Shown: one piece after another, positions 8,628 through 51,400 of the stretch
How positions within the stretch are numbered: position 1 is the first letter of the stretch
Layout: each line of letters opens with the position of its first letter
From: Paralichthys olivaceus
Taxonomy: Eukaryota; Chordata; Actinopteri; Pleuronectiformes; Paralichthyidae
Length of the DNA stretch: 64,000 nt
Direction: 5' to 3'
Assembly (NCBI RefSeq): GCF_024713975.1
Contig: NC_091107.1
Span: forward strand, 12,885,501 to 12,949,500
Made by a program: the position numbers and the translations under genes
The notes under the pieces: generated by a model
The model's database searches: none
Told to the model about the DNA's origin: nothing
What the model saw: only the letters and a program-made list of their open reading frames with translations

Positions 8628-11600
8628 TTATTTTCTTGCGTGGGTGCTGCCTCCTGCAGCTGCAGGTTTATTGCCAACCCTGCGGACAGGAACTTTGGAT
8701 GTTGGTATCTTGGAGCGAGGGGGTTCTTTAGCTTGAGGGATTTGGGAGGCAGTGTGAGACTGTGCACCATGCTTCACAGGGATCTTCGAGTCACGTTGTA
8801 AACTGATGAGGACCTTTTGCTGGGGAGGATGCTGATTCTCCTCCAGGGTGTGTTTAAAAGCTGGCACATTCGCCTCAATATCACTGATTTTATCTTTGCT
8901 CCTTGCTGTATCATGTGAGTTGAAGTGGGGTCTCTCATATTCTGGAGTAGGTGGGTCTCTGCTTGCTTCATCATCAAACTGTTGGCTGTCCCGCACAGGT
9001 AGCTTGCCTGCTCTGCCCCCTCCAACAACAGGTATTTTGCTAAGCCCTGATGCCTTCACTTGTGGTGTCTTCTTTTCTCTGCAGGGGCCTTGGAGGTTTG
9101 TTCGTGACTCACTATGCAGTTCCTCTGTTTTGGAAGGCCTGGTCTGGGCCCCCAGGATACCTGTGCTATTTGGATTAACCATTTGGCAATCTGCTGATAC
9201 CTGTCCACTTCCTGTCATCTTAGCAGAGCTTGGGGCTTCACTTGGCCAAGGTGCAGAGGCAGAGGGAAGAGGACTGACAGGGTAAGGGGCAGGGGTAGGA
9301 GCAGAAAAGGGCTTAGATTGAGAGGTTTTAGAAGGCAAAGGAGGGTCTTTAGATACAGAAACTGGTATCTGAGCAGGCAAAGGAGGGTCTTTAGATACAG
9401 AAACCGGTATCCGAGCCAAAGGGTCTTTAGATACAGAAACTGGTGTCTGAGCAGGAGGGTCTTTAGATACAGAAACTGGGATCTGAGCAGGAGGGTCTTT
9501 GAATACAGAAACTGGTGTCTGAGCAGGAGGGTCTTTAGATACAGAAACCGGGATCTGAGCAGGAGGCTCTTTGAATACAGAAACTGGTGTCTGAGCAGGA
9601 GGGTCTTTAGATACAGAAACTGGGATCTGAGCAGGAGGGTCTTTGAATACAGAAACTGGTGTCTGAGCAGGAGGATCTTTGAATACAGAAACTGGTGTCT
9701 GAGCAGGAGGATCTTTCAATACAGAAACTGGTATCTGAGCAGGAGGGTCTTTGAATACAGAAACTGTTGTCTGAGCAGGAGGGTCTTTCAATACAGAAAC
9801 TGGGATCTGAGCAGGAGGGTCTTTCAATACAGAAACTGGGATCTGAGCAGGTGCAGAGGGCTCTTTAGAAATAGAAATTGGGATTTGAGCAGGTGAACAA
9901 GGAGCTTTAGAGCTCTGAGCCAGAACAGGAGGTGTTGGGGATGCTGTGCAAACAACAGCATGAGTAGAAGGGGCTGGAGTCAGTTTGGGAACAGGGGGCA
10001 TCTTATCTACAGAGATTGGTGCAGGAGTGGGTTTAGTTGTGGGAGGAATGTTATCTAAAGAATTTGATGATGGAGTTGGGACAGATGCAGGGCTAGCTTG
10101 AGTTTTAGTTATGGCACTCAGGGCAGAAGAAGGACAAAAATCTGGAACGGCAACAAGGGAGGGAGGGGTCTTAGTTAGGTCCATTGGGCTGGAGGTGAGT
10201 GTAGGCTTGGAAATGGCCATAGATACTAAGCCTGAGGTTGTAGTTGATGTAGGAACTGTTGTCATCTTGGAGGGGATAACTGGTGATGGACAGGAGGGTT
10301 TGGTTGTAACAGAACAGGTTGCTGATACTGGGGCTTTAGTTTCTCCTGCAGAGGAACTTAGAAGGGAAGGTTTGTAGGAAGTAGAAGTTTGCCAATTAAG
10401 ACCATTAGATGAATCTAATTTAGCAGGTAGAGGTTGGGTGAAAGCTACAGGGGTGGGAGGGCTATGCGTTACTGGTGGAGGTTTAGCAGATACAAGAGGT
10501 GGAGTTGCTACATGGGTAGGTTTACTTACTGAATCAGTTGCAGAAGGTGCTGCAAGTTCTGAAGCCAATTTGCTTGCCGTCGAGGTAAGTTTTGGACTAA
10601 CTGAGGGAGCTTTGACTACAGTAGCTGGGGTGTTCAGAGGAGCTGTGGTTGTAGCAGTGGTGGAGCTCTTTGTGGATTTATTTGTTATTGAAGAGGAAGA
10701 CATCAATGGAGCTGAAAGACTTGGACTCCTGACAGGAGTCTTTGAAAGTTCTGTTGCGGTGGGTGTAGGAGTTGATTTAATCATTACGCTGGAGGCAGAA
10801 GTAGAATCCGAGCTCAGTTTGACTGAGGGAGTTGTCAGAGTGGAAGATTTGGTCAATGTTGTGATGATTGTGCTCGGCTTGGAAATGGGTGAGGAGGTTG
10901 GAGCTGTCTTTGTCAGAGGAGTAAAGGATTGGCTGGAGGCCGTTGTGGGGAAACAGGGTTTTGCCGTAGCAGCTGTGCTGACCGAGATAGAAGTCAGCGG
11001 AGAGGAGATGGTGGGTTTGGTGAAGAGAGATGCAGATGATGGCGTGACTTCACTCACTGCTGCACTGATGGCATTGCTGGCTTTCCCCCACTCTGCCTCC
11101 ACATCAGCCATGATGTCACCACCCCCTGAGATAGAGTCAAAGGTCAGGAGAGAGGAGATGTCTGCCAGCAAGGTGCTCAGGCTGTTATCACCGGGTACCA
11201 GGGGCGGTGCAGAGACAGGTTCATCAGTTCTATTCACATTCCCTGCTGTCAACTGGGGGGTTATGGTCTCTGACGGGGTCGGAACTTCCCTGTCCTGTGT
11301 TGTCAAGCTTGTGATGGGCTCAGAGCTGTCTGTCTCTGAGCTGTCCTGTGATCGAGGCTGGAACTTGGGGGTGAGGGTGAGGTCCTCTTTGATGATTTCC
11401 ACGCTGTTGGCCCGGGACGACATGAGTAGTGGACTCGGAGGGGTATCCTCCTTGTCCTCTTTATCTTTTGAGCGGAACCTAACAGTGCCAAAGAGACCCT
11501 TCAGCCCACGACGTTGCCTACCTACAGGCTGTGACACAGTGTGGACCCGCCGGTCCCCCATTCCTCTCCGGCCACCCCTCAGTAGCGACAGAAAGCTGAG

Positions 11601-11948
11601 GGACTTGGCCGAGCTTGCCGAAGAAATGGAGGTGCGAGCAGGGGCTGCAGCCAGAACGCCATCTTCAACACCAAGTGGCTCCTCTTCTGCCTGCTCCCTC
11701 TCTTCTTGACTCACCTGTCTTTTTTCCTTGTCTGACTCTGGCTCCAAATCTGCTGCAGCCATGTATGGTAATCCATCTTGGGTTTTGCTACTGTTAACAG
11801 GTGACTTGTTGTTTCCATCACCTTTGCTTCGAATAGAAAAGATGTTACCTGGCTTGCGTTTGCCAAACAGCTTGAATCCTTTTCTGATTTTTCCACTCGG
11901 CTGGGATTCACCAGGCGGGGGGTCCATGTTCTCCGTTTGTACATCCAT
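8628..11948 (-). CDS. AMER (FAM123) family APC membrane-recruitment protein, Amer2-like, single exon, 1106 aa
   Basis: AMER proteins bind PI(4,5)P2 at the plasma membrane and recruit APC; AMER2 also binds EB1. The whole CDS is one exon, as usual in this family. Two basic N-terminal segments (about residues 20-34, KIRKGFKLFGKRKPG, and 144-163, RQRRGLKGLFG) match the lipid-binding region. The order PSGKI..FKLF.KRK..SKGDG...DGL resembles AMER2. A TFDSISGGGDIMAD motif near residue 270 matches the FDSLTGCGDI block of the family. The middle is Ser/Thr/Pro-rich and low in complexity, followed by about 15 copies of a 12-residue repeat (DPPAQIPVSVSK type). The C-terminus carries SKIP, SKIP, SQIP and SKIP motifs at residues 970, 1054, 1068 and 1079. 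At 1106 aa it exceeds human AMER2 (about 670). Start ATG lies in a purine-rich context. Family is secure; the exact paralog is not. Confidence 0.85.
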   Translation of the reverse strand: MDVQTENMDPPPGESQPSGKIRKGFKLFGKRKPGNIFSIRSKGDGNNKSPVNSSKTQDGLPYMAAADLEPESDKEKRQVSQEEREQAEEEPLGVEDGVLAAAPARTSISSASSAKSLSFLSLLRGGRRGMGDRRVHTVSQPVGRQRRGLKGLFGTVRFRSKDKEDKEDTPPSPLLMSSRANSVEIIKEDLTLTPKFQPRSQDSSETDSSEPITSLTTQDREVPTPSETITPQLTAGNVNRTDEPVSAPPLVPGDNSLSTLLADISSLLTFDSISGGGDIMADVEAEWGKASNAISAAVSEVTPSSASLFTKPTISSPLTSISVSTAATAKPCFPTTASSQSFTPLTKTAPTSSPISKPSTIITTLTKSSTLTTPSVKLSSDSTSASSVMIKSTPTPTATELSKTPVRSPSLSAPLMSSSSITNKSTKSSTTATTTAPLNTPATVVKAPSVSPKLTSTASKLASELAAPSATDSVSKPTHVATPPLVSAKPPPVTHSPPTPVAFTQPLPAKLDSSNGLNWQTSTSYKPSLLSSSAGETKAPVSATCSVTTKPSCPSPVIPSKMTTVPTSTTTSGLVSMAISKPTLTSSPMDLTKTPPSLVAVPDFCPSSALSAITKTQASPASVPTPSSNSLDNIPPTTKPTPAPISVDKMPPVPKLTPAPSTHAVVCTASPTPPVLAQSSKAPCSPAQIPISISKEPSAPAQIPVSVLKDPPAQIPVSVLKDPPAQTTVSVFKDPPAQIPVSVLKDPPAQTPVSVFKDPPAQTPVSVFKDPPAQIPVSVSKDPPAQTPVSVFKEPPAQIPVSVSKDPPAQTPVSVFKDPPAQIPVSVSKDPPAQTPVSVSKDPLARIPVSVSKDPPLPAQIPVSVSKDPPLPSKTSQSKPFSAPTPAPYPVSPLPSASAPWPSEAPSSAKMTGSGQVSADCQMVNPNSTGILGAQTRPSKTEELHSESRTNLQGPCREKKTPQVKASGLSKIPVVGGGRAGKLPVRDSQQFDDEASRDPPTPEYERPHFNSHDTARSKDKISDIEANVPAFKHTLEENQHPPQQKVLISLQRDSKIPVKHGAQSHTASQIPQAKEPPRSKIPTSKVPVRRVGNKPAAAGGSTHARK
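9336..9899 (-). repeat. 36-bp coding minisatellite inside the AMER-like gene
   Basis: About 15 head-to-tail copies of a 36-bp unit encode 12 residues each (DPPAQ[IT]PVSV[FSL]K). Two end units carry an extra two codons. Two alternating versions, AQIPVSVSK and AQTPVSVFK, suggest a higher-order 72-bp unit. Copies differ by few bases, implying recent expansion. Because the period is a multiple of three, the opposite strand stays open too and gives a false Arg/Tyr-rich ORF. Confidence 0.92.
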
Positions 11949-12204
11949 CTTCTCTCTGCCTCCCCCTTTCTCTGTATCCTCCAGTCGCTAGCTGCGGTTT
12001 TTATTCCCCAGCCAGTGGAGAGGGCATTTATTTCCTTCGTCCGTAACCTTGCTTTATCTCTGCTGCTCGGTGTGTGTCTTTATCGGTTGTCTGTATCACT
12101 CTCTCCCTCTATCTTTCCCATCCAGCCCTTTCTCCTCTATTTCTCCCTTGAAAGCCCCTCCCATTTGCCTCGTTTTTTTTTTTTTTGTCTGGCTGCTCTC
12201 CCCG

Positions 12205-36935: not shown

Positions 36936-39900
36936 ATGTTCTTGTGGAATTATCTGACCGTGCTCCTGCTGATAGCTGCTCAGATATGTGAAGGTAAGGC
37001 ATGATGCATGTTCACAGACACAAGTATAACATGCACTCCATACACAGTCAATTTGACAATAAGCGATACAACAGCAGCTTCTGGGAAACAGTCAGGAAGA
37101 ATTTGAGGAAGTGACATTTCTTTGGAAAGCCAACATGTTGTGAGAAAATGACCTGAACTGTGGTATCAGGCTTTTCAGCTGATATACTGAATATGCAGCC
37201 ATATGATGATTTATTGTGTAACAGCTACAGAGAGCAGCTGATTGTTTTTCCTCAATGTGGTAATACTTTGGATGAACTGTCTGTTTTGACAGTTCATGTT
37301 GACCCAAACAAAGCACGACAGTGACTTTAGGCTATGGGATAATAAACGTGTGTCATATTCCCAAACTAAAAATGTTGTAATCTTATTTATTAAGAAGCCT
37401 TGTATAATTTAATGATTGTAATAGAAATGTTAACTGTCTGTGAAACCTTGTATGTAATGTCTTTCTAGTCCATGAACAATGGTACTTCCGTTAGCACAGT
37501 CAGCACTGGATCAAAGCCAGTTCTAATGGTCACAGATGCATTTGTTTCTTAGGTCAAGGACACAAGGTTTCACAGACAGTTGAAACTTCCATTACAATCA
37601 TCTGCTGAAAATATTTTTACATTTGAGTTTTCCTTCTTTAAAATCTGCCCCTGCCTTCTGGATCCTGTCTTTTTTTCAGACCATCAGTTTCCGATCAGCG
37701 TTGCAGGACAAAGCTGCAAATTAACAAAATGTATGGCGAAACTGAAAAGTGTGTGTTGTAAAATGAACTCTGAAACAACAGACACCAATAGGAGTGGGCA
37801 TGTATGTCACCCTTTCAGTTCTAACGTTTCAGAATTGTTTTCCAACGTACGTGCACCAATTTTCAGATTAGCATTTACAAGGTTTCAAATCTGGAAAATA
37901 AACCGATGCACTGGGAGAAGACTGATACATTTCAAAAATTTGAAAAAAGAGCACTGCAGTTTAGGAAAACTCAAATTCAAAATAATTCAATTTTCATCCT
38001 TTTCTCTTCGAATCACATTTTTTAGATAACAAGTTTTGAAAGCCTTTGTTCCAGTTTAAGAAAAAGAGATTGATCCCATATTATAAGTCAGACCCTCTCA
38101 TAAACCTCACGGTTGCCTCATTATCTGTTTTCCCATTTGAACTTGTTTATATCTGTCCGGGGGTTTCACTCTAGAATTGCTAGTCATTTACTCTGAGTCA
38201 TTTGGAAATGATGTCATTGATGCAGGCAGAAACTGTGGATGATAAGTCATGAAATAGGTTACGCAACCTTCAGCAAAGCTTGTAAAATCTTAATGTTCCT
38301 GTGTCTAATTTATTCTTATTTAAAAGTGTCTCTCTTTTTATCTCTTCGTCCCTCAGCGGCTCACATATGTGACAAATTGGGGAAACTGAATTTTGGCCAC
38401 GCGTTCTTTGGCACCAACGTCCAAGTTAAGTTGCGGCTGTTCACCAGGGAAAATGTCACCTGCGGCACGCTCCTGTCCCACACCAACCTGTCTGCCCACC
38501 CACAGTTCAACTTGTCTCGACCCACCACCTTCATTATTCACGGGTATCGGCCCACAGGGTCTATTCCTCTGTGGATGGACAGCAGCGTGGAGCTGCTGCT
38601 GGCCAGAACGGACACCAACGTCATAGTGGTAGACTGGAACCATGGAGCTACCAATGTGAACTATTTAAAGGTGGTGGAAAACTTGCAGGAGGTAGCAGCA
38701 AACCTCACTGGGTTCGCTGAAAGGATGCAGGTATGAGATGGGTCTGACACTCTCTGTGATCTCATGTTACTCAGACTGCTGTGTGTAACACGATGTAATA
38801 ATGATCTCCTCAGGAACACGGGGCATCTCTGAGCTCCATCCACATGATTGGAATCAGTCTCGGAGCTCATATATCAGGTTTCGTAGGCGCCAACCTGAAT
38901 GGCTCGATTGGAAGAATTACAGGTAAGAACGACTCATTTTGGAACATGGATTCAGATCATTTTGTTTCTTCCTGATCCACAATTACTGATTTTCTGATCA
39001 CACTGATCACACTGATCACAAATTCATAAATTCATCCACTGATCGTCCGGTTAGTGGATGACCCTCTCTACCTCCTGAGCCACAGCCTCTCCAGCACCTA
39101 TATCATTTACTGTTGTGTTCAGAAATAAAGGGACATTTCACCTGAGGTCTGCTGATGTGATGTTTGCAGCTCTGGATCCTGCCGGGCCTCAGTTCACTGG
39201 CACTGCACCAGAGTTGCGACTGGACTCCACAGATGCCCAGTTTGTGGACGTCCTGCACACAGACATCGATGGTGAGTTGAGCTGAATTTCAGTCAGATAT
39301 ATTCAAAACTATTTCAGATATGTTGTATAACTTCTTTTTCTCCGTATGTGTAAAACACTCATGTTCACGTTCACAGCTCTGGGCTACAGGGAGCCTTTGG
39401 GTCACATTGATTTCTACCCAAATGGAGGAACTGACCAACCCGGCTGCCCAAAGACCATCTTCTCTGGTACAGCCTGTAAAATCATGGGACTTGTGTTTCA
39501 AGGATACAAACATAATAATAACATTTCTTTCTCCATGTTGCTTCTGTACAGGAACTTCTTATTTCAAATGCGACCACCAGAGATCAGTGTTCCTCTTCCT
39601 CGGCTCGGTGAATCAGACGTGTTCCATCAGGGCGTTCCCCTGCTCGTCCTACAGCGACTTTCTGGACGGAAACTGCCTGAGCTGTGAGCAGTTTGGTGCT
39701 GCTGGGTGTCCTGTCTTTGGTTAGTACTCACATTATCTAGTTTTTTACTCTCAGAACTTACTAGAAAACAATATGTAAAGATAAGATCTACTGTTAATGG
39801 AAACATGAATTGTGTGTGATTCAAGATGTTTACTGTCACACAAGTTTTACAGAAACAATGATGCACTTTTATTAGAACAAACTGTTTATCTCCACAATAA

Positions 39901-41282
39901 ATATTAAAATATGAACACTCAGAATAAACTCTTGAGTGTAGAATGATTTGTACAGTTTGTTGAATATTGCAGTATTGGGTATTTGAGGTATTTTCCATAT
40001 TGATAGAATCCAAAAGATATTTTCAGGTACAAAGTTCTTTGGAGTATTAGTAAGGTCTGTCAATGTTTCTGAATAGAAACCTTTATTTACAGAATGTTAT
40101 TGTTGACCTGACGCTGCTGTTTTTGCTCAAACACAGGCTATGACGTCGCACAGTGGAAAGACAGCCTGGTGGGACTGGGCCAAACAAAAATGTTCTTCAC
40201 AACAAATCCAGAGTCTCCGTTCTGCAGTGAGTAACAGAACATGCATGATAACAATCATACTGGGGGGGGGGACAAAGGAGAGTAATGTAATCTCTGCATC
40301 TCTTGCAATAGTTTGAGGAAACACATTCAAGGGAAAAACAGGATTTGATCAAATAATCCCTAAAAAATGTGATGGCACATTCCAGTCTGTGAACCGAGTC
40401 AAGGACAATTGAACAGTTTTGTAGAAAAAGAAACAAATAATATCCAACACAATGATCCTTTAATATGACAGCATGAAGAACAACCTCACATTCTAGAATA
40501 GAAAAGGATAGAATGCACTGAACCAGCAGTTTAGGAGCAGAAAATAAAGAAGGGAAATTCAAAACTTGATTCCGAGTACACCTCATTTCAGTGAAGAGAA
40601 ATATTTTAAAGTCAGAAGGATGAACGTGTTGTGTTTTTGTCTCCTCTTAGCTACAGGCTACACAGTGGATGTGGTGATATGGAACACCAATATTCAGTGT
40701 GGATACATGACCATTAAACTTCATCATAATGGTACAGAAGCAGTGGCGACCATTGACCAGTGAGCCTTCTCTCCATTTATCATAACGCACCAATACTACT
40801 AATAATACTATAATGCATAAACTATGACTTCTTTTGTCGGTGTATTACTGTGTTCTCTCTGTATAATGTGTTTTTTTTTTCACAACAGTAAATCATCAAA
40901 GTTTGAGAAGTACACAGAGAGCAAGTTGTTCGCCCAGTTTGACAAAGGCATTGAGTCAGTGGACAAAATCTCTGTCAAGTTCTCCACTAAGAACCTGCTT
41001 AAGTCCAAATATAAGCTTCGTGTTCTGCGAATCCGTCTCACGCATCTGGAACTCAAGAAAACGTAAGCAACATATTTTTTTAAATGCAATATCTTATTAA
41101 TTTGACCTACTTGAGCCGTAATTTCCGTCATTCTTATAGTCGAATTAATCTTTTCTCCCAGCTCTATTAACAGTTATACGTGATCTCTATGTTACAGGGC
41201 TCTCTGTCGATATGACATCCTTCTTGAGGACAACACAGAGGTCACATTCAGGCCGATTACCTGTGAAGAATTCAACTTCTGA
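36936..41282 (+). CDS. liph: Membrane-associated phosphatidic-acid-selective phospholipase A1 (lipase H type), complete, 10 exons, 452 aa
   Basis: Secreted pancreatic-lipase-family PLA1 that makes 2-acyl-lysophosphatidic acid. Exons: 36936-36993, 38357-38730, 38814-38922, 39170-39271, 39377-39466, 39552-39719, 40137-40226, 40651-40759, 40889-41062, 41198-41282; all junctions stay in phase and it ends in TGA. Residues 1-20 form a signal peptide ([16 protein letters not shown]). [10 protein letters not shown] forms the oxyanion region. The nucleophile is Ser159 in GISLG, the acid Asp183 in LDPAGP, and His253 in KCDHQRS, each offset +5 from human LIPH. Paired Cys blocks ([21 protein letters not shown]) fit the family. 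The C-terminal half is the PLAT-like domain. Human LIPH is 451 aa. LIPI is the close alternative. Confidence 0.92.
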
Positions 41283-41807: not shown

Positions 41808-43642
41808 TCATTTAGACATGTGCTTCTTCATACGCTGAATCTCCATCTGCAACAAAACACCACAAAACAAACCATGAGAGTACTTTCTAACATTGAATCT
41901 AATGTTCTCAGCTCAGAAAACACAGATTCCACTGTTCTTCGTTTCTTTCGAGTTTCACCTGTAAAGTCAAGCGGATCCTTTTCTCCTCATCCAGCTCGTT
42001 CATCAGCAGTTTGATTTCTTTGCTGGAAAAACCAAATATTGTCACATTAGTTCAGCAAAACCAAATGATGGGGTGCAGGGATGGGACAGGCGGGCCATTT
42101 AACACAGATTTTGAACATAGATTAGAGCGACAAAGCCGTACTTGTGCTGACTCTTCATCTGCTCAAACTGGTCCCTCAGGTCCCTCAGCTCCGTCTGCAG
42201 CTCATCCAGGTTCGCTGACGTGTGTGTTGCTGGATGTCTGCTCGGCCGGGGGTCGGACCTGAGGCCCGGGGGCAGCACAGCAGAGAGAGCCTTTGGTAAC
42301 AGAGAGGAGAAGGATGGGATGGGCTCACTTTTTGGTGCCGCTGCCTGTAGAGAATAACCCAACATTATTATTTGACAGAAATCTGAGATAATAATTACAA
42401 GTATTTTTTTCTCTTTACGCTCACCGGCAGGGCAGAGCCATTGTGACTTGCTTCCTGACAGTTTTCTTTTAGTGTTGAAGCATCCAGCTCTTCACTCAGG
42501 TTTTCTTTTCTTTCCTTCTCCATCATGAGTGTTGCCTGTAAGTTGAGTCTAGTTTGAGATGTCTGATAAGTAAAGTACATCTAAATTCTATTCTAAATAT
42601 ATAAAACAAATGTCCCAGAGTTTGGTGCTCTCCAAAGAAACTATTGAAACAAATTATTCTAGTGAAAAGTGAAATGAATATTAAATACAGGGTGAGAATC
42701 TTCTGCTGTGTGTGTCAGTGTGTGTCAGAGAGGCAGCTCAGAGAAGTTAAATTTACCTCAAGGACAGATGAAACACAAACAGACCAGACCACACACTCAG
42801 CTGAGTTACAATGGTATGTAAGTGGTTAATGTAACATTGCTCTGGTTGGATTCTAAATATATAATTTCAAATGTATACTTCCCAGAGTCTGAAGCTCTGA
42901 CTGTAACCTCCCATCCCTTGCACCAGCTATCTGCTCATTCAGCTTCTCCGCCACTGACGCAATAGAGGCAAACTCCTCAGTGTCTTTGAGAGAAACGGAG
43001 AATTAATGTTAAAGAAAAATCCTCTTAGGACTAATTCAAACCCATCGTTATAGAATATATCGGCCCAATTCTAAAGAATACAGTAACATCCATTCTTTTC
43101 AAGCATGCAGCACGGTAGCATTTTATTTCTCATGACTTTGCCACAGATGAAACAGCAGTATGGTTGAGAGGCTTACCAGGAATGAGGGCTGAGCTGTAGC
43201 TGCCCATGAGGAATACAAGTGCAGTGAAAGACAGAAAGACCTGCAGAGACTTTAAATCTACATCTACAGACAGAGTGGAGCAGAATTCAACAGTCAGCTC
43301 AGTAAAACCTCGTGTTACATCTGAGAGACATTGAAAAGTTCTGAGAACAACTTTTTTCTTTTCTTTACTTCTCTACTTTTTGTGATTTTTAGCCATTTCA
43401 GACTTGGATGCTTCTTTATCAAACAGAATTTGGGGGTTTCTCAACAAACAGCTGTTCCTGTCATGCAGTGAACAAATGTGCAGCAAATGCAGGAACAGAT
43501 GCAGTGACAGATCTGAACAGTCATTAGTGAACATACTGAACCATTTAGAAGATTATTGTGAGTTGCGGTCGAAGGATCTGGAGCAAACACTCACCTTGTT
43601 TTGCCAGTGTCACCAGTGAGATACAGCAGCACCTGTGGTCAT
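41808..43642 (-). CDS. Small coiled-coil protein with a CIN85/CD2AP-type C-terminus and an N-terminal hydrophobic segment, no SH3 domains
   Basis: Well-supported exons (5' to 3'): 43263-43177, 42983-42879, 42535-42425, 42344-42142, 42022-41959, 41846-41808 (TGA). The last three give LDELQTELRDLRDQFEQMKS then ELDEEKRIRLTLQMEIQRMK, closely like the C-terminal coiled coil of SH3KBP1 (SELDEEKKIRLRLQMEV). The first listed exon encodes a hydrophobic stretch VFLSFTALVFLMGSYSSALI, either signal peptide or anchor. A start at 43642 (ATG ACC ACA G, donor GTGCTG) would give MTTDVDLKSLQ; a stronger donor at 43594 gives no in-frame ATG. Between 42879 and 42535 a 44-nt exon near 42742-42785 would keep phase, but this is unproven. 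There is no room for SH3 exons before the next gene. Existence likely; 5' end and name uncertain. Confidence 0.6.
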
Positions 43643-43865
43643 GGGACACCCTCCATTGTAACCCAGTGTGGTGGTCAGAGCATGTTGTGATGAAGGGTGC
43701 TACTGTCAGGTCTAAGTTTAGCTCAGGACAGAGTGGAGCAATAGTGCCCCGCTCACAAATATCACCGGGGCAGAGTGAAGGGCAGCAGCAGAGGTTTAAA
43801 GGGGCAAAGACAATGAAGTCACTGATGTTTACACTGCAGAAAACAGGAGGCAGAAGACGTGATCT

Positions 43866-43892
43866 GCTTTTATTGTGAAAAGTTCTGATTGG
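43866..43892 (-). promoter_or_regulatory. CCAAT box plus TATA-like element of the small coiled-coil gene
   Basis: On the minus strand GCCAATCAGAAC (CCAAT at 43892-43888) is followed about 14 bases later by AATAAAAGC (43874-43866), a TATA-like sequence. A start near 43840 would give a first exon ending at 43595 or 43633. Spacing is shorter than usual. Confidence 0.35.
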
Positions 43893-45417
43893 CTCTCCTG
43901 AACAGCTCTTAAAGGGACAACCAAGATTTCCCACATTAAGTCCAGTTTACTCATCACAGATTATTCTGCCATGTTGCAAAATCATTTGTATATATATTAT
44001 AGGGTGGGGGTGGTTGGTTTTGAGAAGGGTTTGAAATAAATACATGCATTATGGGAAATTTAGGCCCAAAATGTTTGGGATAAACTGGGAATATAAATTA
44101 GAGTCAAGATAACCCTGCTTCTTTTCCTCCCGGCAACTTTATGGACATTCAATTCCAAATTGCTGGAGTGCTTGAAGTTCTGCCACACCCTGAAATGAGT
44201 ATTGATTTAAATTTTATTGAACAGTAATTAAGGGAATTTAGTAAATAATTGAATGTAGTAATTAAATTTAAAATCTAATATCTATCTGAGGACATAAAAT
44301 AGTATGAGGTTTGATTAAGACTTAGACATTTCGACCATAGACACTGGCCTGAAAACTCCTGTATCCTCCCCTTTAATCCAATCCAACAGCTAATGGTTTA
44401 TTCCTTGGCCCATACTGCACCTTTCCACATTCTTTCAGTAAAATTGGTTCAATAGTTTTTGCAGAATCTTGCTGACAGACAAACAGCATTTAAAACAACA
44501 GCACTACTAATGAACTGATTCTGCATCTGTTCAAATCAACAGTAAAAATAAACACAACTCTGAAATGAAGTTTGTTAAATCGTTTTTTACTTCAAGTCTC
44601 AAACAATAAACTGAACATGTGATTATACAAGTTGTACGTAGTAGTAGCCAAGAGTCAGTTGAGGGGCCACGTTTCCTAATCAGAAACACCCATGAGTGAT
44701 AAAATAAGACACCTCATTGGATACGTTTTTACAAGCGATGAAGGTGAGATGTTAAAGTAAACATTTCTTGGATTGGACTCAAATGTTGCTGGACTGGTAA
44801 ACAAACAAACAAAAAATGATAATACTATGTGAAATAAAGAACGCCAAGATCACTAGCAGCAATTCCCAAATCCAAAAATACGTCAGGAAAAAAACGAGAC
44901 AATAGCATTTCATATAATACCATGTGTTAATCTTCTAAAACAAAGTACTGCAGTACTTCATAGATGAAACTGAAACACAAGTACCAGAGAACAAGTGTAA
45001 GCAACCACACTTCCTTATATACAAGCAGGTTGGGATTGTACTGAGAGAAGGGTTTGTGCAGTCCACCCAGCCGAAGAAATCTCAACGTTGTCTGCTTTCC
45101 AGTGTCACGTCTGCAGACTGTGCTGGGATACAGAAATAAACCACAGTGAATACATCCACATTTTTTTAATGTAATACAATATTACAAGTACTTTTATGAT
45201 TATTATATAATCATGATTTATTGAGTTACATAACCTTTTTAATTCGAAGAAATGACATCACAGTAAGCAAAAATACCAATGTAAACGCTAGTGGATGATT
45301 GCAGACTTCAAGGGGTTAAATGAGGGATACAGTAGCAAAGCCGATTCATACTATGTACTGAACAGGCCTACTTATGACCTGGTGATGGACGTCAGGACAG
45401 TTTCTTACCGGAGGTTG
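43893..45417. other. Interval between the small coiled-coil gene and the BCLAF-like gene
   Basis: No exon found. The right part is probably the 3' UTR of the BCLAF-like gene. A reverse-oriented F1 fragment (TTCCTTGGCCCATACTGCAC ... CTTGCTGACAGACAAACA) occupies about 44375-44505. Confidence 0.5.
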
Positions 45418-48400
45418 TCACCAGCGTTGTTGGTTGGGTCCTCTGTTGTATGGCGCACGCTGACGCATCACTCTCATGTTGCGGTATTTAGACATGATAT
45501 TATAACTTTTTCTAAACACGGGTCTCTGATTTAGGAAAGGACGTGGCACCAAGCTCTCCTGATAAGAAAAAACCCCAAATAAATTCACAAATTAGTCATT
45601 TTAAAAGAATTTTCCTGAAAAACGCAAGATATCTCTGAAGAGGGGTAAACATACCATGAGCGGTCTTCTTACATTTCCAGACATTTCAGGACCTGGGTTC
45701 CTTGGACCACCAGTGAACCTCGGTCTCTGTAAAACAACAGTGAACACTGAATACATAAAGTAAGAAATTACCCTCATTTATTCCTCATGCATTTAAAATT
45801 AAAGCAAGACCAGGCAGATGTAAATGTAACTTCATTGTCTAGTGATCATACTGCTGAAATAGTTAAATCTACCAAAAACACCCGTAGCTCACACACTTTT
45901 AGTATTTCCACACAATCAAGAATTAAACTTTAAGTTTACAGCTTGAAAGGCCGGACCCCTGTACATTGTACAACTGATTCTTTATGGTTTCATCACACAG
46001 AGCTCAACAGTCCATTAAATCAAACGCCTCACTCACCTGAAAGGGTGGTGGTCCTGGTTTTCTGAAGGGCCTCCCAGATCTGTTGCCGTCCACCATCACA
46101 TTAAACGGCCTGAAAAACAAAGAGAATGTCAGAAACAGCAAAACACTTCCAGCAAAAATCTCACATTTAACAGGTGAACCCCAGGTCTCAAATTGTTGGG
46201 TATTATAAGAAATGTACCTGAACATCCTCTTGTCCATATGTCCCCGTTTTCTGTCTTCAGGCAACGATCTTGGATTATTCGTCCTTGAGAGTCGGCTGTC
46301 CGATGAGTCTTCTTCATCTGAGCTATGTTCTAAAAAAAACAAGGAGATAAAAAAATTAGAATAAAAGCCTATGGCTGAGAGGCATGTTAAATGATGGCAT
46401 ATAAAAAAACAACTGCACATTTGATTACAAAAATTATATATTTACCACTCTTTGACTTTGGGCTGTGATCTTTGGGAGGTGAGCCATCCTTAGAGGAGCT
46501 TGGCCCCGGAGGCCAGTGGGACAAAACAACAAGGTCACGTTTCTCTATGGGAGAAGATCTGTGGAATGTGTGGAAGAGTTAAGATCATAAGCGTTCATAT
46601 AACAGCATCATGTACAAAACATTTATTAATTTGTCTTGGATACATTAACATGTTATTCAAGTGTTTCAAGAAACAGACTGAAAGTAAAAGGTAAAAATCA
46701 ACCTGTTGACTCTTAAAAGAAATTTAAACCAGTAATGAACAGAAGTATTTTTCAGGCAGATTAAAGATTATAAAGCCACGCATTACACATGGGTACTTAC
46801 AAAAAAACCATGGCATGTCCATGCTCCTTCTATTATTATACCCCGAATCAATCTGAGCTCTCTTCATTCACTCAGTGATTGTTGGAGTTGACTTTAAGAT
46901 AGTGGTCTACATCACATCACCAAATCTTCTATCATCCCTCTCTCAGAGGCACAGGAGGAAAACGCCCTGGTTTTCACTGTCACACTGAAGTTCAGGTGTT
47001 TAATCAGGTCATTCTCTGTTGTTCCTTTAGTTTCATTCAATCATTTCCATTGTCCAAACAGGATCCCGACATGTATCTCAGAGAGGCCATGAGAGGTTTG
47101 AGTCTTGAAGACGTTTGTAGTTCTGACAGGTCCGGGCTGATGATTATGTAAGTTTCTTATCCATAACTGTGCAGTGGCTTTAAGAGATGAGCCAGTCCAG
47201 GGTTCAAAGCTACTTACTACAGGCTTTGTAGAGCTTTCAAGTGAGACGTCCATTTCTTCAGATCTCTTACTCTCCTTAAAATTGTTGGCATTGGGAATGG
47301 CCATTCATGAAAATGCCAGATTTTACAAGGATCAGATTAATTCTGCAGTAAAACCACAGTGAAGGAGGTTGTGCAGTGCTCTCTACTCCTCTTCATGTAG
47401 TAACTTTAAGTTACAGAAGAATGGATTGAGGACATGTTTTGTCCAAAACACTAGACGTCTTTACAGGTTGACAGGTTGACAGGTGCAGGCTTAGACTTTA
47501 AGTGCAGTGGGCTCTGATTGCATTAGCCTTGTAAAGCAGTGACTGAATATTGTGAGTTCCCTCGGGCTCATGATGAGGTGTTCATCATGATTGTTACATT
47601 TAGGCCAGACTTCAGATTGGACACAGTAGCTGACAAACAGACCAAGCCAATGTTGACCTGTGGGTCCAGTGCAAACATTTTCACACCGATAAGAATAAAC
47701 CAGAGGGCGTGGTAAGGCTACACAGAGCAGGCTGATCTTGCTTTCGTCCACATGCAGTATCAAGTTGGAATTTTGGCCACTTGAAATCTCTTCCTTCATT
47801 TTGTTCTCATCTATTTCAAATCCAACCTCTTAACGTCTGTCTTAATTTTTCCACTTGTGCTTCGTCCTTTTTGGAGTTCGCCCTTCTGTTGAAGGTATTG
47901 CTGATACAATTAAAACAAAGCTGCTCATCTAGTAGCTCAATGGTCCCTGGTTATGCCTCATGTTGGTCATCACAAGGCTTCAAGATGATTCTCTGGCTTT
48001 GACATTTTTAACAGGTTCTGATAACGACTCCAGTATTTAAGACACTGTATGAAGTGCAAGTAGTAGTTTGTCTCCTCTTCATTCTGCCCAGTCTGAACAG
48101 AAATGATGTCCACAAGGGTTTTTGCTTCGGATGGTGCTGAACCGTGTAGTTTATCCAGATAAGCTGATCCGTTTACTCACTGGAAAAATGTCATTTCCAC
48201 CCCTTTGTCACACGTGAACTGGGCATTACATTGGGTCATAGCATATGTGTGCATGTTGTTACGCATCGAATGAATGTGAGATAATAAGTATTCTTGGCTG
48301 AGTTGACTGCGCTCGATTGGGCCCCAAAAAAAAATCTTTGTCTTGAATGTTAAAAGTCTATACTTAACTTTAGAGCTTTATGAAGCGATTGTTATTGGTA

Positions 48401-51400
48401 ATTTAATGTGCATAGACAAAGAAGTCCGAATTTTCAATCTTAATCTCTTTAGTTATTTTTCCGTGAATTTCTCAGTAAGAGTCAGACGTGTCCTCTAAAT
48501 CTGACGATGGCTGGTGATGTCCAACAACAGAAATTCCTCTTCACAGTTTAAGGACTTTAAACTGTCTCTGTGACCGTCATCCATCTTGATCATGTTGTGA
48601 TTACTCAGGGACTCAGGGAGATTAGCTTTGTTTTTGGAAATTCTTTGATAAAAAACGCCTTGACTTTTAATGCTTCTGTCCTGTCTGTTTTAGTTGGAGC
48701 CTTGAACGATCACCATTGGACATCCATTTGATGCATCTCTTTTTTCCAGAGTCCAGGTAAAAGGTGACTTTCTGCCAACAATTTAAAAATGGGGACAGTG
48801 CGAATTTCTGTGGAGTTTTCATGTCCTTATTTTGCGTACATGGATATACTGCTTTGCAATAGATGTTGTAACTTCAGCTTCAGATTTGTTTTCTACCAAC
48901 GATGAAGGGTCTTCACGATATGCTGAAGAACAACTCTCTTTAAGATATTCATTGTTGACAAACTGATGAATCCTCAACAGCACAGATCAAATCATTTTCC
49001 CATGGACCTCATCACAGCAATAATACTTTTTGTCTGCTTTTAAAAACAGGCGGGCTTTGTGTCGACATGATGCTGTAACTTAGCACTTTCTCTTGAGCCC
49101 GGGAAAATATTTTTGAAACACAGGCAGCACGCAGACAGGGAGGCGTTAGAGAACTTTTGTAGCTTTTCATCAACTGAATCAGTGTTGCACATTTAGCCCA
49201 TCACGACATCTCCATTTTCCACAGCTGGCACCCCCTTCCCATTGAGACATTCTTTCTTGACCTCTTAATCATCATCAAGCCCCTGCGAATAGTGCTACAA
49301 GGAAAATACCGTACCTGTGTGTGTTCAAGGACCGGCGAGACTCCACCTGTTCTTTGTCTGTGTCAGAGTCTCTTGAAGACTTGCTGCTAGTGCCTTCTTC
49401 TCTGGGGGGTGAATGTTGTGGTGTTGGCCTCCTTGGTTCCACCTTTCTCTGGGGAACTGGATTTGACTGGAAACGTCTCTTTCTGGTAGCAAAAACAGAG
49501 CTGAAATTTCCCCGTGGGGTGAAGTCGCCCACGCGGGGCCTGGGATTCACTGATGGGGGGAGCCTGAGCCCCATAAGAGACTCTGCTTTGACTTGTCTGC
49601 CTCTAACTAGGTAACTTTTATCACCAAAAGGTTTACCACCAAATGGCCTGGGAAAACTGAAAAACTGAGGTCGGTCTCTCCTGGGATGTTTCAGATTGCC
49701 ATGCTCTTGTGCAGCGTCTGCAGGGGGCATGCTAACATCAGATATCTTCCTCTTGCGGGGTCCAGGCCCCTGCCTTTCCTGAGGGCTCCTGTGGTAGGAT
49801 GTTGACTGTGGTGGACCTCCTTTCCATGAGGGAGATCTGAAAGGGAGCTGGTGAGGGACATCTTGTGCTCTCTCTCTACTGTGGGATCTGCTGCCCTGCC
49901 TCTCCACTGGACCACGCTGCCGCCTGGAGTCTTGCTCAGATGACCACCTGCATATCCATCAAACAATACAGAAATAATTACAATGACAGATCCATTGTCA
50001 TGTTAAGTGGGAGGCGGAACTTTTAACTTTTATCTTAATGCAGCCCTTCATATTGTCATGACAGAATGAATCAGGTAGGAGAAGTACATTCACAGAGTAA
50101 TTACAGATGTAACACTCCTCAATGGCAGGTGAAACCACATTTACATCAGACCCCCATTTATCCCCTCTAATAACTATGGGTTGGGGCAGAGTAGAGGTAA
50201 TCATTATGACCCCTGTGATTTCGAGGACTGGGCCAGCTTCAGGCCTCCTCCTTACTAATTTTACCCAGCTGGGATAGTTGCATCACTCCTGTACCTCTCT
50301 GGACACGGGCCTCTCCCATGCATCTCTCTGGGGCTCCTCTGTGACCCAGAGGGCCTGTGCTCTCCATTGTGTGGATGAGAGAATGCTCCAGCCTCGTTCC
50401 AGCGCTTCATGCCATGACCTGAGTGCTCATAGGGCCTTTCTCTGGGGTTGAAATTCCCACGAGGATCTCGACTCCGCTGCTCCTGATGGGAAAAACCTGA
50501 CTGCCTTTTGTGGCCCCTGAAGGACCCCTGAAAGGCTTGTGAAGAGCCTGGCCTCCTGTCAGCTGGGTGGTTACGAAAATGTCTCGGGGAAGGTGACCTG
50601 TGCCCTGAGGGTTGGCCGTGGAAAGGTGGGCCCCTCTGACCTGGGGATCCTTGTGCAGGACTGCGAGAGGTTGATGGGTTCTGGCCATGAGGGGGTCGAT
50701 TTGGCCTAGATGGAAAAGGCCTCCTCTGGCTATGATGCGGTTCCATTTTGGGAGAGTATGATTGAAAGGAATCCTGATTAGGGGACCTCATGTTATTGAA
50801 ACGTGGCTCCCTTTGCTCTCCCATCAGGGGGACTCTCTTGACAACTGGGGGTCGTCCTCTACCTCTGGAATCTCTCCAGTTAAAGGGGGTCTTTACTGTG
50901 TAACCTGGGGCATCTCTTCTATTTTTAGGGTTATAGTTCCCTTCATTCTGCCCCATTCCATGACCTTCTCCGTATGGTCTGAGAAGACACAAGAAAAACA
51001 AAGATGCGTAAATTAAAACACATCATCCCATTCTAAAGTACAATATTTTGCAACAACAACAATCATAAATACCAAAGATTAAGTGGAAAAAAATATATAG
51101 TACATAGTTACAAATAAAATGTTGTCAAATTATTACCTATATGTTACAACATATTGCTAGCAAAAACACAAATAAAGAACAACACACTATTGCACACTTA
51201 TATGCAACTAAATAGCATAACTGTTAAAATCCTGATCTTCCTTGTCTATCTTTTTAATTTTTGCGTCTGCCGCATGTTAGAAGCGTCATTAACCCCCCAC
51301 TGACTTTATACAAGGAGGCCAAGTGGATAAAGTCTGTAGAAACTGCGGAGCATCTCACTGGAACATTTGTGTTTACATGCACCTCCTCCGGAAAAAATTG

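Follow-up and report, generated by a model that had tools for sequence, protein, structure and literature searches.

Contig C15 of the Paralichthys olivaceus genome (588 Mb in 25 contigs) carries exons that correspond to the tail of an adaptor protein of the CIN85/CD2AP family, which raises the question of whether a gene for the tail exists here, from what it descends, and what its product might do. The stretch analysed, hereafter the window, comprises 64,000 nucleotides (C15:12,885,501-12,949,500), and the exons lie on its minus strand (42983-41808), where they match the C-terminal part of CIN85/SH3KBP1. We conclude that this locus, here termed the stub, is a real, SH3-less duplicate of sh3kbp1: it belongs to the CIN85/CD2AP family by descent, and its architecture departs from that of the family in the SH3 domains, the proline-rich region, and the CPI motif.

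Exon map and coiled coil

Exons B to F run co-linear with CIN85 residues 462-660 (tblastn of the 64-kb window), all on the minus strand. The stop codon ends at 41808, within the last coding exon, exon F (41808..41846), which encodes MEIQRMKKHMSK before the stop and corresponds to the last part of the CIN85 coil; its junction with exon E is in phase 0, the same as in the full-length sh3kbp1 gene on C17. Exon E (41959..42022; (N)KEIKLLMNELDEEKRIRLTLQ) encodes the second half of the coiled coil, and exon D (42142..42344; LDELQTELRDLRDQFEQMKSQH) encodes a short Pro/Ser-rich stretch and the first half of the coil, being entered in phase 0 and left in phase 2, like its C17 counterpart, through a weak donor (score 1.2). 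Exon C (42425..42535; ATLMMEKERKENLSEELDAST...) encodes an acidic linker that aligns weakly with the CIN85 linker, and has a phase 0 acceptor that scores 0.6. When joined, exons C-F comprise 417 bases with no inner stop and no frameshift, and their GT/AG splice sites are present. Further upstream are exon B (42908..42983; DTEEFASIASVAEKLNEQIAGARDG...), which is homologous to CIN85 462-477 and has an uncertain 3' end; a putative exon A (43177..43263), with an acceptor of 4.5 and a phase 1 donor of 5.9 that fits exon B; and a possible 5' exon with short upstream ORFs (43595..43833; ATGs at 43683, 43656, and 43642). The possible 5' exon has both the strongest donor (8.3) and the top acceptor-like site (7.3) within 44650-41780, and is preceded by CCAAT at 43892 and ATAAAAG at 43873. 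Splice scores were obtained with an approximate, self-written matrix and no trained program.

A repeat origin for exon A or the possible 5' exon was considered and rejected, as 41808-43642 matched only itself genome-wide. A dispersed repeat is located at 44351-44501, upstream of the possible 5' exon, and occurs in at least 39 further places in the genome (68-91% identity). No relative of the stub was found in scans of the genome_contigs and viral_contigs collections, neither of which is expected to contain fish.

The initial annotation had claimed that the last exons encode a nearly intact CIN85/CD2AP coil, and this claim is borne out. Of six chains matched by the tail at E up to 1, the solved CIN85 coils 2n64 (E=1.7e-14) and 5abs (E=4e-13) rank first and second, and the gap-free coil is identical at 31/56 positions to C17 Sh3kbp1, at 29/56 to human CIN85, and at 22/56 to human CD2AP. 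The 178-residue query for this search and for Pfam assumed a phase-2 route from exon B to exon C; the solved-coil matches are independent of that assumption because they fall inside the coil. By tblastn, CIN85 matches exons D and E together at E=7e-10, and the C17 exon D as query gives E=4e-8. By sequence, the stub has the C-terminal coiled coil of the family, which is predicted to trimerise. Pfam returned for the tail seven generic families only, all below their cut-offs. At the positions of CIN85 K645, K646, R648, and R650, exon E carries K, R, R, and T, such that three of the four phosphatidic-acid basic residues are K or R. According to the available text of PMC4096430, the CIN85 coil alone suffices for phosphatidic acid binding, and these four residues act as a charge cluster, with the tested pair mutants still binding.

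Loss of SH3 domains, proline-rich region, and CPI motif

The description of the locus as an SH3-less CIN85 derivative likewise holds. There is no credible match to an SH3 exon or relic in the 64 kb using human CIN85, and the fish's own SH3 exons gave nothing credible against the window (best E 0.16). Genome-wide, human CIN85 gave 69 matches (E up to 0.01; 67 of 167 candidates scored), and the only one on C15 among those listed is at 1.90 Mb, 11 Mb from the stub. Thus, the three N-terminal SH3 domains of the CIN85/CD2AP family were found for the stub neither in the window nor in the genome-wide search.

It might be argued that this is an ordinary sh3kbp1 gene, the SH3 exons of which are far upstream or were lost by misassembly; the initial annotation itself had named the joining of these exons to distant SH3 exons as an outcome that would overturn its reading, and the whole-genome search with human CIN85 does not support it. 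Introns of the CIN85/CD2AP family are long in mammals, which lends the argument some weight, as does the fact that an exon-by-exon search can miss short or decayed exons: with 67 of 167 candidates scored, and with the window's own short coil exons absent from its matches at E 0.01, the genome-wide search could have let a short, decayed SH3 exon elsewhere escape. However, the sole C15 match among the 69 listed for the 588 Mb is at 1.90 Mb, the 20 kb of window upstream of the stub contain no SH3 match, and a full sh3kbp1 with its own tail is already present on C17, so that we regard an ordinary gene as highly improbable.

The long proline-rich region with SH3-binding motifs is also gone, leaving the short Pro/Ser stretch in exon D; proline-rich pieces of the C17 gene found no match better than E=0.2 in 41.5-45 kb of the window. 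The CPI motif reads LxHxTxxRPK(6x)P in the available text of PMC4598739 and PMC2897767. The C19 family member (KLSHPTASRPKMPGRRLP) fits this published form, that on C13 (KLSHPTANRAKPPQRRPP) has one departure (RAK for RPK), and C17 sh3kbp1 (KLSHPTATRPRVTDRRPRS) has two (RPR for RPK, and the last P shifted). In the window this position reads KLNEQIAGARDGRL, and the motif is lost. The loss coincides with the 3' end of exon B, where the donor is not preserved.

Exon B and intron phases

CIN85 homology extends beyond what the initial annotation had described, to exon B. The exon B segment DTEEFASIASVAEKLN aligns with CIN85 462-477 (DLEGFDSVVSSTEKLS) with a score equalled by 1 of 5000 shuffles, and ranks first among the 1607 stop-free local windows compared with CIN85 (41.7-44.6 kb). 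The fraction of shuffles reaching the score is lowest for human CIN85 (0.0002), followed by C13 (0.0028), C19 (0.009), human CD2AP (0.11), and C17 (0.14), so that a comparison of exon B with only its C17 counterpart does no better than chance.

The start phases of exons B (1), D (0), E (2), and F (0) are the same in the window and in C17 sh3kbp1; exon C starts in phase 0 in the window, and the phase-0 donor that ends C17 exon B (GCG|GTGAGT) implies the same start in C17. Exon structure and descent are thus shared with the CIN85/CD2AP family, except for the exon B donor. Exon B of the stub has no phase-0 GT donor save one within the conserved block (score -5.4), and its GT donors in other phases score -1.8, -2.2, -2.8, -3.2, and -4.5; in consequence, exons B and C join poorly in frame. 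One possibility is a GC donor (GCTGGT|GCAAGG, last base 42922), which fits in phase and, by eye, fits the consensus poorly. The phase-2 route from donor 42908 to acceptor 42548 was rejected, its sites scoring only -2.2 and -7.9. Direct splicing of exon A to exon C was also rejected as a coding path: the phases on the two sides differ (1 and 0), and the frame that results runs into a stop in exon C.

Origin by duplication

Among the genome-wide matches listed, SH3A, SH3B, and SH3C occur in order at three loci. The locus on C17 (20.580-20.596 Mb) is sh3kbp1, with an SH3A 73-75% identical to that of CIN85 and a tail of its own; that on C19 (3.889-3.917 Mb) is cd2ap (SH3A 68% to CD2AP); and that on C13 (6.126-6.129 Mb) we take to be sh3d21-like. 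The stub is a duplicate of sh3kbp1 and probably an ohnolog, and its neighbours bear on this assignment. A pcyt1-type gene is situated about 11 kb from the stub (C15, 12.916 Mb) and has copies on C17 (6.178 Mb) and C16. A first comparison gave 86% for C16 and 85% for C17, with pcyt1a and pcyt1b indistinguishable. Summed tblastn bits with human PCYT1B and PCYT1A mark the C15 copy (533 for PCYT1B over 467 for PCYT1A) and the C17 copy (599 over 511) as B type, and the C16 copy as A type (575 over 445). Upstream of the stub, at 56-64 kb of the window (minus strand), is a MAP7-family gene (Pfam MAP7, E=2.6e-20 for the joined pieces), with the pieces of its MAP7 domain located at 58.5-59.6 kb and another MAP7-like piece at 63.7 kb. 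Elsewhere in the genome, it matches a single place at E up to 1e-4, namely 18.71 Mb of C17 (69% over 35 residues).

The presence of pcyt1b and MAP7 copies on both C15 and C17 suggests that the stub is the whole-genome-duplication copy of sh3kbp1. On C17 these genes are 14 Mb (pcyt1b) and 1.9 Mb (MAP7) from sh3kbp1 and not adjacent to it, so that the fit to duplication is at chromosome scale. The neighbours fit a single region that was duplicated and whose two copies then lost genes reciprocally, and we infer that the duplication was that of the teleost whole genome. C17 sh3kbp1 adjoins an ASK-type MAP3K gene (MAP3K15-like by eye), relatives of which occur on C19 and on C13, 0.11 Mb from the sh3d21-like gene; the human order at Xp22 is MAP3K15-SH3KBP1-BCLAF3-MAP7D2. 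In C13 6.015-6.134 Mb, a MAP3K relative, the sh3d21-like gene, and a BCLAF/THRAP3-like exon (E=0.002) are grouped together, and this segment is apparently an older paralogous counterpart of the sh3kbp1 region.

Descent from sh3d21 or cd2ap, rather than from sh3kbp1, was weighed against these data. A tree of 81 columns and six rows places the window on the CIN85 side with respect to CD2AP (97/96), and leaves the window, C17, human CIN85, and the C13 sh3d21-like gene joined and unsplit; within that group, the sh3kbp1 side is not separated from sh3d21. In addition, fewer shuffles reach the exon B score for C13 (0.0028) and C19 (0.009) than for C17 (0.14). Against such a descent, exon B fits human CIN85 best of all (0.0002), coil identity in the tree set is higher to C17 (26/44) and CIN85 (25/44) than to C19 cd2ap (19/44) or C13 (8/23), and the MAP7 neighbour agrees with the SH3KBP1-MAP7D2 order in human Xp22. 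We therefore consider an origin outside sh3kbp1 very unlikely.

N-terminus and likely product

The initial annotation had proposed that the gene starts with a hydrophobic N-terminus, which would make its product membrane-bound or secreted; neither proposal finds support in exon A. The hydrophobic run VDLKSLQVFLSFTALVFL (codons 43261-43208) precedes the only in-frame ATG of the exon (43207), from which MGSYSSALIP is read. The frame opens at 43372 and contains no ATG ahead of the run, so that translation of the run requires an upstream exon, for which there are only weak candidates, 13 single-intron combinations at lax thresholds. The top Kyte-Doolittle mean of the run (19 residues) is 1.69, a value equalled or exceeded by 111 of the 750 six-frame ORFs of at least 40 aa in the window, and by 46 of the 240 that are 60-100 aa long; the run is no more than chance gives.

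Codon usage was assessed by a test trained on 591 codons of the neighbouring genes, with 197 windows as the null (median -0.16, 90% point 0.14 per codon). In log2 odds per codon, the coding signal is above the 90% point of the null for exon B (0.53), the coil part of exon D (0.90), and exon E (0.46); exons C and F each give 0.18, and the linker part of exon D gives -0.02. For the hydrophobic stretch it is -0.10, and for the frame of the possible 5' exon that is open into exon A it is -0.07. Because the run precedes the only in-frame ATG and has no coding signal, a membrane or secreted form is unsupported, and exon A is most simply read as 5' UTR, or as contributing MGSYSSALIP at most.

A start at 43642 (MTTDVDLKSLQVFLSFTALVFL...), the end coordinate of the initial annotation, giving a membrane-anchored or secreted coil, is improbable. 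The ATG at 43642 belongs to a ten-base exon, and a phase-consistent splice from its donor at 43633 to the acceptor at 43263 does yield an N-terminus resembling a signal sequence. However, donor 43633 scores 1.0, as opposed to 8.3 for the near-perfect donor at 43595, which is 38 bases further on and the use of which would turn ATG 43642 into a short upstream ORF; the same ATG and donor rank fourth of the 13 combinations available at equal laxity; and the encoded run is ordinary in hydrophobicity and lacks coding signal. The problem of the B-C junction also persists under this start. A cleaved signal peptide would place the coil in the ER lumen, beyond cytosolic CIN85, and therefore the two suggestions of a secreted protein and of a poison of CIN85 trimers conflict.

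A soluble, cytosolic coiled-coil protein of about 135-178 residues is the likeliest product of the stub. It would most likely comprise around 135 residues if started at ATG 42526, or around 170-178 residues if started at ATG 43207, according to the way in which exons B and C are joined. Translation may begin at the pair of ATG codons in exon C (42526 and 42523), possible starts that give 135 or 134 residues.

Constraint and decay

Across 56 codons, the window and C17 coils differ at 14 first, 13 second, and 24 third positions. The NG86 method gives dN 0.29 and dS 1.08 (ratio 0.27) and LWL85 gives 0.26 and 0.35 (ratio 0.73); both ratios include constraint on the C17 paralogue, and so are no proof of selection acting on the copy in the window. 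The tail branch of the window is about threefold faster than that of C17 (0.99 vs. 0.31). Neutral evolution of exons C-F was simulated with 7 splice sites and an assumed 0.1 indels per substitution, in 3000 runs per divergence level. At 2% divergence, the exons were still open and able to splice in 31% of the runs, a share that dropped to 5.7% at 5% divergence and to 0.1% at 10%. Given the survival at 5% and 10%, any loss of function would have been recent, and under this model the open coil frame is unlikely to be a long-standing neutral relic.

These data also bear on whether the stub is decaying, i.e., whether an sh3kbp1 duplicate lost its 5' half, with a functionless transcript and coil exons that are open only through the recency of the loss. 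This is a real, though not a favoured, possibility. It would account for an exon B without a good phase-0 donor, the disappearance of the CPI motif, the faster branch, the absence of coding signal from exon A and the possible 5' exon, and the LWL85 ratio of 0.73. It has to be set against exons C-F that are free of stops and frameshifts and have GT/AG splice sites, against neutral survival that has already fallen to 5.7% at 5% divergence, and against the retention of the coil and most of its basic face.

Proposed function

On balance, with roughly even confidence, we interpret the locus as the remnant of an sh3kbp1 duplicate that kept the coil exons and likely encodes a small cytosolic coil protein that brakes CIN85 clustering. 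In this view, the teleost whole-genome duplication most likely supplied the additional sh3kbp1 copy, which would have shed its SH3 exons, the capping-protein motif, and almost the entire proline-rich region, while the exons for the trimerising coil stayed. If expressed, the product would be predicted from its coil to co-trimerise with itself and with full-length Sh3kbp1, perhaps also Cd2ap, and the entry of stub chains would leave a CIN85 trimer with six or three SH3 domains instead of nine. Its basic coil face may also occupy phosphatidic-acid membranes, without a hydrophobic anchor. The net effect would be a gene-encoded brake on CIN85 clustering.

The premises of this proposal are found in the available text of PMC7016142, by which the coil makes stable trimers, trimeric CIN85 offers nine SH3 domains, and phase separation with SLP65 needs 60 uM of the coil-less monomer vs. 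10 uM of the trimeric form. Because the coil trimerises and each trimer has nine SH3 domains, a coil-only protein should enter CIN85 trimers and cut their valency; the poisoning of CIN85 trimers suggested by the initial annotation is thus a reasonable expectation from the coil alone. In the available text of PMC4096430, an SH3-only fragment is cited as a dominant negative on EGFR internalisation, and the coil alone is not given as an inhibitor. More tentatively, the sh3kbp1 copy may have been reduced, after the teleost genome duplication, to a gene dedicated to the trimerisation coil and retained in that form, as a natural dominant negative that would set the SH3 count of a CIN85 trimer and thereby tune receptor endocytosis and B-cell signalling condensates; it is very unlikely that such a retained gene would also be membrane-tethered through exon A.

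CIN85 works by valency, the nine SH3 domains of a trimer driving its clustering with partners such as SLP65 (PMC7016142), and a coil-only gene, if true, would amount to genome-encoded control of valency and a natural test of it in fish. Should the stub prove to be a dying duplicate, it would be an example of a multidomain adaptor losing domains after duplication. A literature search under likely duplicate names of sh3kbp1 found no description; an annotation in a fish database may still exist.

Among known proteins, CIN85/SH3KBP1 (Ruk, SETA; C17 here) resembles the stub in the C-terminal coil, the intron phases, the exon B block, and the mostly kept basic face, whereas the stub has no SH3 domain, no CPI motif, almost no proline-rich region, and a tail branch about threefold longer. 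CD2AP (C19) and the SH3D21-like protein (C13) have a related coil and exon B region, but they keep three SH3 domains and a recognisable CPI region, and are less identical to the window coil. Short mammalian Ruk/CIN85 isoforms that lack SH3 domains, which Buchman and colleagues are said to have traced in 2002 to internal promoters, similarly have the coil without SH3; these are isoforms of a full gene, unlike the stub, which is a separate locus. The CIN85-CC and CIN85-PRC fragments, as described in the available text of PMC4096430, are also SH3-less and hold the coil, but are engineered rather than the product of a natural gene.

Neighbouring genes in the window

The gene at 45418-51010 (minus strand) is located between the stub and the MAP7-like gene, encodes an Arg/Ser/Gly/Pro-rich protein, and has no Pfam match; a genome search with a 229-residue piece returned no other locus at E 0.01. 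By eye and by place it resembles bclaf3. However, human BCLAF3 has no match in the window at E 0.05, and shuffles reach the alignment score of the largest ORF in 4/200 cases for THRAP3 and 39/200 for BCLAF3; owing to these results and the blank Pfam search, the name bclaf3 is not claimed. A lipase gene (36936-41282, plus strand; Pfam Lipase, E=1.5e-14 for one exon) is tail to tail with the stub, about 525 bases from its stop codon. At 8631-11987 (minus strand), a single open frame of 1119 codons matches Pfam AMER (APC membrane recruitment; E=2.4e-28), and by eye this frame holds a run of PPAQ(I/T)PVSV(S/F)KD-type repeats.
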